A stretch of DNA of 64,000 bases from Polynucleobacter necessarius (GTDB taxonomy: Bacteria > Pseudomonadota > Gammaproteobacteria > Burkholderiales > Burkholderiaceae): assembly GCF_900096765.1 (NCBI RefSeq), contig NZ_LT615228.1, positions 1,494,669 through 1,558,668 on the forward strand. Direction: 5' to 3'. How positions within the stretch are numbered: position 1 is the first letter of the stretch; every line of letters starts with the position of its first letter. This document shows positions 58,775 to 61,400 of the stretch, piece by piece. A program made the translations under genes and the position numbers. The notes under the pieces were generated by a model that saw only the letters and a list, made by a program, of their open reading frames with translations, did not search any database and had not been told where the DNA came from.

Positions 58775-61400
58775 GGATCAAGTGAATAAGTGCACATGAT
58801 GGATGCCTTGGCGATTACAGGCGAAGAAAGACGTTATAACCTGCGATAAGCCCCGGGGAGCTGGTAAATAAGCTTTGATCCGGGGATTTCTGAATGGGGA
58901 AACCCACCACTTTTGTGGTATCCATACCTGAATACATAGGGTATGAAAAGCGAACCTCGTGAACTGAAACATCTAAGTAGCGAGAGGAAAAGACATCAAC
59001 CGAGATTCCCAAAGTAGTGGCGAGCGAAATGGGAAGAGCCTTCTAGTGATAGCTCAGTAATTAACAGAATGGAATGGAAAGTCCAACAATAAAGGGTGAT
59101 AGTCCCGTATGTGAAAATTATTGAGTGGTACTAGACTAGAGACAAGTAGGGCGGGACACGTGAAATCCTGTCTGAATATGGGGGGACCATCCTCCAAGGC
59201 TAAATACTCGTAATCGACCGATAGTGAACAAGTACCGTGAGGGAAAGGCGAAAAGAACCCCGGGAGGGGAGTGAAATAGATCCTGAAATTGTGTGCATAC
59301 AAACAGTAGGAGCCTCGTAAGGGGTGACTGCGTACCTTTTGTATAATGGGTCAGCGACTTACATTCAGTAGCAAGCTTAACCGAATAGGGAAGGCGTAGC
59401 GAAAGCGAGTCCGAATAGGGCGCTAGTTGCTGGGTGTAGACCCGAAACCAGTTGATCTATCCATGGCCAGGTTGAAGGTGCGGTAACACGTACTGGAGGA
59501 CCGAACCCACTAACGTTGAAAAGTTAGGGGATGAGCTGTGGATAGGGGTGAAAGGCTAAACAAAACTGGAAATAGCTGGTTCTCTCCGAAAACTATTTAG
59601 GTAGTGCCTCGTGTATCATCGTAGGGGGTAGAGCACTGTCATGGTAGTGGGGTCCATTGCGGATTACTGCGCCATAGCAAACTCCGAATACCTACGAGTG
59701 CAAGCACGGGAGACAGACATCGGGTGCTAACGTCCGGTGTCAAGAGGGAAACAACCCAGACCGCCAGCTAAGGTCCCTAATATATGCTAAGTGGGAAACG
59801 AAGTGGGAAGGCTAAAACAGTCAGGAGGTTGGCTTAGAAGCAGCCATCCTTTAAAGAAAGCGTAATAGCTCACTGATCGAGTCGTCCTGCGCGGAAGATG
59901 TAACGGGGCTAAGCATATAACCGAAGCTGCGGATCACAGCAATGTGATGGTAGGAGAGCGTTCTGTAAGCCTGTGAAGGTGTCTTGTAAAGGATGCTGGA
60001 GGTATCAGAAGTGCGAATGCTGACATGAGTAGCGATAAAGGGGGTGAAAAGCCTCCTCGCCGTAAGCCCAAGGTTTCCTGTTCAACGTTCATCGGAACAG
60101 GGTGAGTCGGCCCCTAAGGCGAGGCAGAGATGCGTAGCTGATGGGAACAAGGTTAATATTCCTTGACCATTGTTAGATGCGATGGGGGGACGGATCGCGG
60201 AAAGTTGTCCGGGTGTTGGAAGTCCCGGTTCTTGCGTTGGAGATGGCTATTAGGTAAATCCGGTAGCGCAATTCAAGGGCGTGAGACGAGAAACACAGCA
60301 CTCTGCAAACACGAAAGTGGACGTATAGGGTGTGACGCCTGCCCGGTGCTGGAAGATTAAATGATGGGGTGCAAGCTCTTGATTGAAGTCCCAGTAAACG
60401 GCGGCCGTAACTATAACGGTCCTAAGGTAGCGAAATTCCTTGTCGGGTAAGTTCCGACCTGCACGAATGGCGTAACGATGGCCACACTGTCTCCTCCTGA
60501 GACTCAGCGAAGTTGAAATGTTTGTGATGATGCAATCTACCCGTGGCTAGACGGAAAGACCCCATGAACCTTTACTGTAGCTTTGCATTGGACTTTGAAC
60601 CGGTCTGTGTAGGATAGGTGGGAGGCGTTGATAACAGGATGCTAGTTCTGTTGGAGCCAACCTTGAAATACCACCCTGATTTGTTTGAGGTTCTAACCTT
60701 GGCCCGTTATCCGGGTCGGGGACAGTGCATGGTAGGCAGTTTGACTGGGGCGGTCTCCTCCCAAAGTGTAACGGAGGAGTACGAAGGTACGCTTGGTACG
60801 GTCGGACATCGTACCTAAAGTGCAATGGCAAAAGCGTGCTTAACTGCGAGACCGACAAGTCGAGCAGGTGCGAAAGCAGGTCATAGTGATCCGGTGGTTC
60901 TGTATGGAAGGGCCATCGCTCAACGGATAAAAGGTACTCTGGGGATAACAGGCTGATACCGCCCAAGAGTTCATATCGACGGCGGTGTTTGGCACCTCGA
61001 TGTCGGCTCATCTCATCCTGGGGCTGTAGCCGGTCCCAAGGGTATGGCTGTTCGCCATTTAAAGAGGTACGTGAGCTGGGTTTAAAACGTCGTGAGACAG
61101 TTTGGTCCCTATCTGCCATGGGCGTTGGAGATTTGACGGGGGCTGCTCCTAGTACGAGAGGACCGGAGTGGACGTACCGCTGGTGTACCTGTTGTTTCGC
61201 CAGAAGCATCGCAGGGTAGCTATGTACGGAAGAGATAACCGCTGAAAGCATCTAAGCGGGAAACTTGCCTGAAGATGAGATCTCCCGTAGGTTTAACCTA
61301 CATAAAGGGTCGTTGAAGACCACAACGTTGATAGGTCGGGTGTGGAAGCGCAGTAATGCGTTAAGCTAACCGATACTAATTGCCCGTTAGGCTTGATCCT
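58775..61400 (+). rRNA. rrl: 23S ribosomal RNA with apparent internal deletion
   Basis: About 2,625 nt, against about 2,870-2,900 in relatives. Both ends and most landmarks are present: GGATGCCTTGGCGATTACAG, the GACCGATAGTGAAC region, AACGGCGGCCGTAACTATAA, GACGGAAAGACCCCATGAAC and CTAGTACGAGAGGACCGGAG. At 60290/60291 the sequence jumps from the domain III segment GCAATTCAAGGGCGTGAGAC to AACACAGCACTCTGCAAACA. The intervening part, roughly E. coli 1530-1770 with the conserved CTTGAGAGAACTCGGG and GTAACTTCGGGA elements, is absent. Confidence 0.92.

Follow-up and report, generated by a model that had tools for sequence, protein, structure and literature searches.

The 249-nt gap in the only assembled 23S rRNA gene of a Polynucleobacter necessarius genome is very probably an artefact of assembly or finishing

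Functional ribosomes with reduced or fragmented rRNA are known from organelles. In mitochondria, where rRNA has been lost, the sequence has drifted, proteins have been added or pieces are encoded separately. Among the bacterial large-subunit proteins, L17, L22, L23 and L29 contact domain III of the 23S rRNA. The core of this molecule, to which helix 61 belongs, is described in the available text of PMC3753638 as cradling the peptidyl transferase region. Deletion of helix 69 was reported not to lead to degradation of Escherichia coli ribosomes, so that loss of a whole helix is not always destabilising, this being one hairpin in another region of the molecule (available text of PMC4289901). A literature search covering titles, the openings of abstracts and part of the matches returned no 23S deletion in Polynucleobacter and no bacterial 23S lacking E. 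coli positions 1530-1784.

The window analysed here is a stretch of 64,000 nt of P. necessarius DNA (contig NZ_LT615228.1, positions 1,494,669 to 1,558,668). Its rRNA operon has the order of an ordinary single-copy Polynucleobacter 23S locus, namely 16S, tRNA-Ile, tRNA-Ala, 23S and 5S (Table 1). Compared with 37 distinct 23S sequences of relatives, that of the window differs in the absence of 249 nt at one point and in five private letters (58825, 58947, 59135, 59619 and 60269), the last of which lies 21 nt upstream of the junction and is not among the nucleotides orphaned by the gap.

Table 1. Features of the rRNA operon and of the surroundings of the gap (coordinates are those of the window)
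Feature	Coordinates	Strand	Details
16S rRNA gene, full length	56733..58267	+	RF00177 model 1-1533
tRNA-Ile in the rrn spacer	58326..58402	+	
tRNA-Ala in the rrn spacer	58433..58508	+	
23S rRNA gene	58776..61400	+	2625 nt, without 249 nt; RF02541 (Rfam bacterial LSU) from first to last model position (1-2925), 2454.3 bits (gathering score 50)
Domain III stretch, 48 nucleotides with partners in the missing piece	60058..60290	+	Rfam structure
Junction	60290..60291	+	Lacks the 249 nt present in relatives (E. coli 1530-1784); without microhomology
3' strands of helix 61 and of the domain IV helix after it, left without 5' partners	60476..60506	+	Rfam structure; helix 61 boundaries from the available text of PMC3753638
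5S rRNA gene	61506..61619	+	RF00001 model 1-120, 80.2 bits

A first-pass annotation, made from the sequence alone, had put the gene at about 2,625 nt and the loss at about 240-250 nt. Both figures were borne out, the covariance model giving the former and alignment to relatives giving one block of exactly 249 nt at the place proposed. Although the gene matches the model from end to end, it measures 2625 nt against 2874 nt in relatives. With the 23S of E. coli strain 127 as reference, the absent block corresponds by alignment to positions 1530-1784, so the sequence resumes nearer to 1785 than to about 1770, as had been estimated. CTTGAGAGAACTC and GTAACTTCGGGA, from the conserved elements named as missing, do lie inside the 249 nt of the relatives. 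Outside the gap the gene is 99.54% identical to that of the nearest relative compared (genome G002), which rules out chance or misalignment as the source of the gap. An old, decayed pseudogene was likewise rejected, since the gene carries only five private letters. About 40 model positions are also absent from domain I, near model 271-315 and about window 59040 (an approximate position, entered as 58816-58870); no majority gap against relatives occurs there, and this absence looks separate from the 249-nt gap and normal for the genus.

Scanning of five other genomes of the same genus with RF02541 gave one 23S copy of 2874 nt (2740-2772 bits) in four and none in the fifth (G017). The absent segment measures 249 nt in each of 11 relatives compared, and in an alignment with 49 loci, which comprise 37 distinct 23S sequences, it is the sole majority gap, confirming what had been proposed. 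A 376-nt probe from G002 was then compared with 186 genus genomes, the window's own included, and matched 110 of them. In 109 it matched once, as one piece across the region; the window's genome alone was matched as two flanks. No match was obtained in the other 76, and among the 20 of these that were listed, 18 are in at least 20 contigs, the others being G060 (7 contigs) and G017 (1 contig). A 32-mer from just upstream of the junction was found at 45 loci in GTDB-220 contigs, of which 43 bear the title Polynucleobacter and the other two that of an uncultured beta proteobacterium, in support of the genus assignment; the distance to the next anchor is 305 nt in all 45, compared with 56 in the window. 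The junction itself, as a 23-mer, had no match in these contigs, a set that may not include the window's own record. Absence of such a gap from close relatives is expected of an assembly artefact, and 109 of 110 matching genus genomes and 45 of 45 GTDB-220 loci are intact.

The structural consequences were assessed with the Rfam consensus structure. Between model positions 1251 and 2105, where 229 pairs are resolved, 30 pairs lose both strands and 75 lose one. The helices closing domain III are affected, and in domain IV helices it is the 5' strands that go, core helix 61 losing one strand in this way; the complete pairing of domains III and IV that belongs to RF02541 is thus lacking. On these counts the gene as assembled is predicted not to be a functional full-length 23S, and we infer that it could not make a working subunit, in agreement with the earlier view that loss of the piece should leave the ribosome non-functional. 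Folding was uninformative, as the shortened region (z -0.43) and the intact region (z 0.10) both resemble shuffled sequences. Ten large-subunit proteins encoded in the region after the operon scored over their Pfam cut-offs (L2, L3, L14, L17, L22, L23 and L29 among them), and judged by their sequences they look ordinary.

The genome is a single contig of 1,825,583 bp, scored 99.99% complete, and it looks like a closed circle, as a 329-codon open frame runs across the contig ends. The contig start is not near the operon: the 23S begins at contig base 1,553,444, and many relatives have the probe region 31-38 kb from their start. One 23S was detected by the covariance model and DNA search, and one 16S. 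In control searches RF02541 scored in 10 of 14 named genomes and RF00177 in 9 of 14, so absence by family search alone is a weak sign; the 23S count in the window's genome also rests on DNA searches. The intact 23S elsewhere in the assembled genome that a pseudogene beside a working copy would need was not found, and neither was a second copy of the missing piece: in this contig the G002 segment matches its own two flanks, the seven other matches being of 14-26 nt (E 0.6 or worse). A piece encoded in trans, as in fragmented rRNA, was rejected on the same search of the contig, in which a highly diverged piece would be missed.

With one 23S and no second copy of the piece, the assembly taken literally describes a cell without an intact 23S. 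If the closed genome is accepted at face value, the cell would have to work with the short 23S alone, late domain III, one helix 61 strand and early domain IV being dispensable or replaced in trans by an unrecognised RNA, and the ribosomes of organelles offer a precedent of a kind. If a ribosome lacking E. coli 1530-1784 were real, current ideas of what is essential in the bacterial ribosome core would be overturned. We consider this reading barely credible, as the 75 pairs that lose one strand show no compensating change, nothing resembling the piece was seen in trans (within the limit just given for diverged copies), the large-subunit proteins look ordinary, and the shorter step is found in none of the matching genus relatives. 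In addition, one strand of helix 61 is gone from a core that is described as cradling the peptidyl transferase region (available text of PMC3753638). The window resembles mitochondrial rRNA in that helices are absent; the drift, added proteins and separate pieces of the mitochondrial cases, however, were not seen in its genome. Of the three readings first put forward, that of an assembly or cloning artefact is best supported. Intact rrn copies are not in the assembly, where one 23S and one 16S occur and from which a further copy may be missing, and an extraordinary rRNA is disfavoured by the unchanged orphaned strands, the lack of another copy of the piece and the ten ordinary-looking proteins.

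An old gap should have let the orphaned nucleotides drift. At none of these 75 positions does the window have a private letter when compared with the 37 distinct relative sequences. Between the window's genome and G002, 372 of 781 four-fold codon sites differ across seven genes, and half of this distance applied to 75 free sites gives about 22 changes expected since the split from G002. By this reckoning the loss would have occurred within about the last tenth of the lineage's age, with the reservation that proteins or tertiary contacts can keep such sites under constraint. Unchanged strands are as compatible with a recent event as with an artefact, and a real, recent deletion may be envisaged that affects a single rrn copy, or only some of the population or culture, the intact copy having been collapsed or dropped by the assembly and the short gene being a dead allele. 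Good base quality and a closed contig would suit such a deletion. We nevertheless regard it as unlikely: a second copy would be unusual, given the single match in all 109 other matching genus genomes, no trace of a second 23S, 16S or missing piece occurs in the contig, and there is neither microhomology nor a flanking repeat to drive it.

At the junction, the longest word common to the 40 nt around both breaks is only 6 nt, and no repeat has copies at both breaks, two short repeat families being present in an intact relative. With neither microhomology nor a break-spanning repeat, the site is ill suited to slippage or recombination. The shared word, AAGTGG, stands exactly 24 nt after both breakpoints in an intact relative (L002); the junction is not there, and the spacing is perhaps due to chance.

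The gap is best read, with high though not full confidence, as a product of assembly or finishing and not as a biological feature, the organism most likely carrying a single ordinary 23S gene, about 2874 nt long. The 249 nt would have been lost where two sequence pieces were joined inside the conserved 23S gene. As a conjecture, two contigs meeting inside the 23S might share an overlap of k bases (k being odd, as 249 is); were that overlap trimmed off both contigs, exactly k bases would be lost and a blunt join without homology would result. A clipped consensus in a long-read assembly could be an alternative route. Fixed-length trimming in Polynucleobacter assemblies is hinted at by three GTDB-220 records whose titles give a node longer than the record, by 227, 227 and 454 bases. 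Of the 22 titles with node lengths, one more is longer than its record (by 680), one is smaller and 17 equal the record. Hand-joined nodes are also evident in record titles, two being marked 'copy2' and one reading NODE3-NODE1-NODE3. SPAdes assembly followed by manual curation to circles has been used for genomes of freshwater isolates, according to the available text of PMC12381374, and a lake genome without rRNA genes despite high coverage is mentioned in that of PMC9426551; no link of either to the window's genome is implied.

Several observations count against an artefact. The 17 of 22 titles without trimming are one, and 249 is not 227. Base quality looks good, since only one of 68 relative ORF rows, a short antisense ORF, was matched in two frames over the window's end and the sequence after it; long-read indel noise was rejected on the same count. 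The contig looks closed, the window contains no N letters, in contrast to the breaks in genome G205 described below, and an operon present once should pose little difficulty to assembly when the DNA comes from a pure culture.

Faults of related kinds do occur in rRNA among the genomes compared, as G017 and G205 illustrate, and this speaks for an artefact. G017, of the same genus (one contig of 1,550,368 bases, listed as 99% complete), yielded no 23S when searched three times and no 16S in a single family search, which is probably another rRNA assembly gap. G205 was among the genomes of a survey of the order (26 genomes including the window's, at most five candidates scored per genome), in which 17 genomes had a 23S match; outside the window's genome, two of 23 full-span matches were shorter than 2850 nt (2818 and 1337), both in G205. 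Of the four 23S copies in this genome, two are full and two (L131 and L132) are disrupted with N at the breaks, one lacking about 1.5 kb with N at the join and the other with pieces repeated and out of order and two N. Like the window, the disrupted copies show abrupt loss or reshuffling inside the 23S between near-identical flanks; unlike the window, which has one copy and no N, G205 also has two full-length copies. If the gap in the window is an artefact, it is a warning that a single-contig genome scored 99.99% complete can carry a broken essential RNA gene, and comparison of rRNA length with relatives would catch such genes.

A 396-aa protein gene, probably tuf, was also identified downstream of the operon in two near-identical copies, one at window 62058-63248, just after the rrn tRNAs, and the other about 16.7 kb further along the contig; both appear intact.
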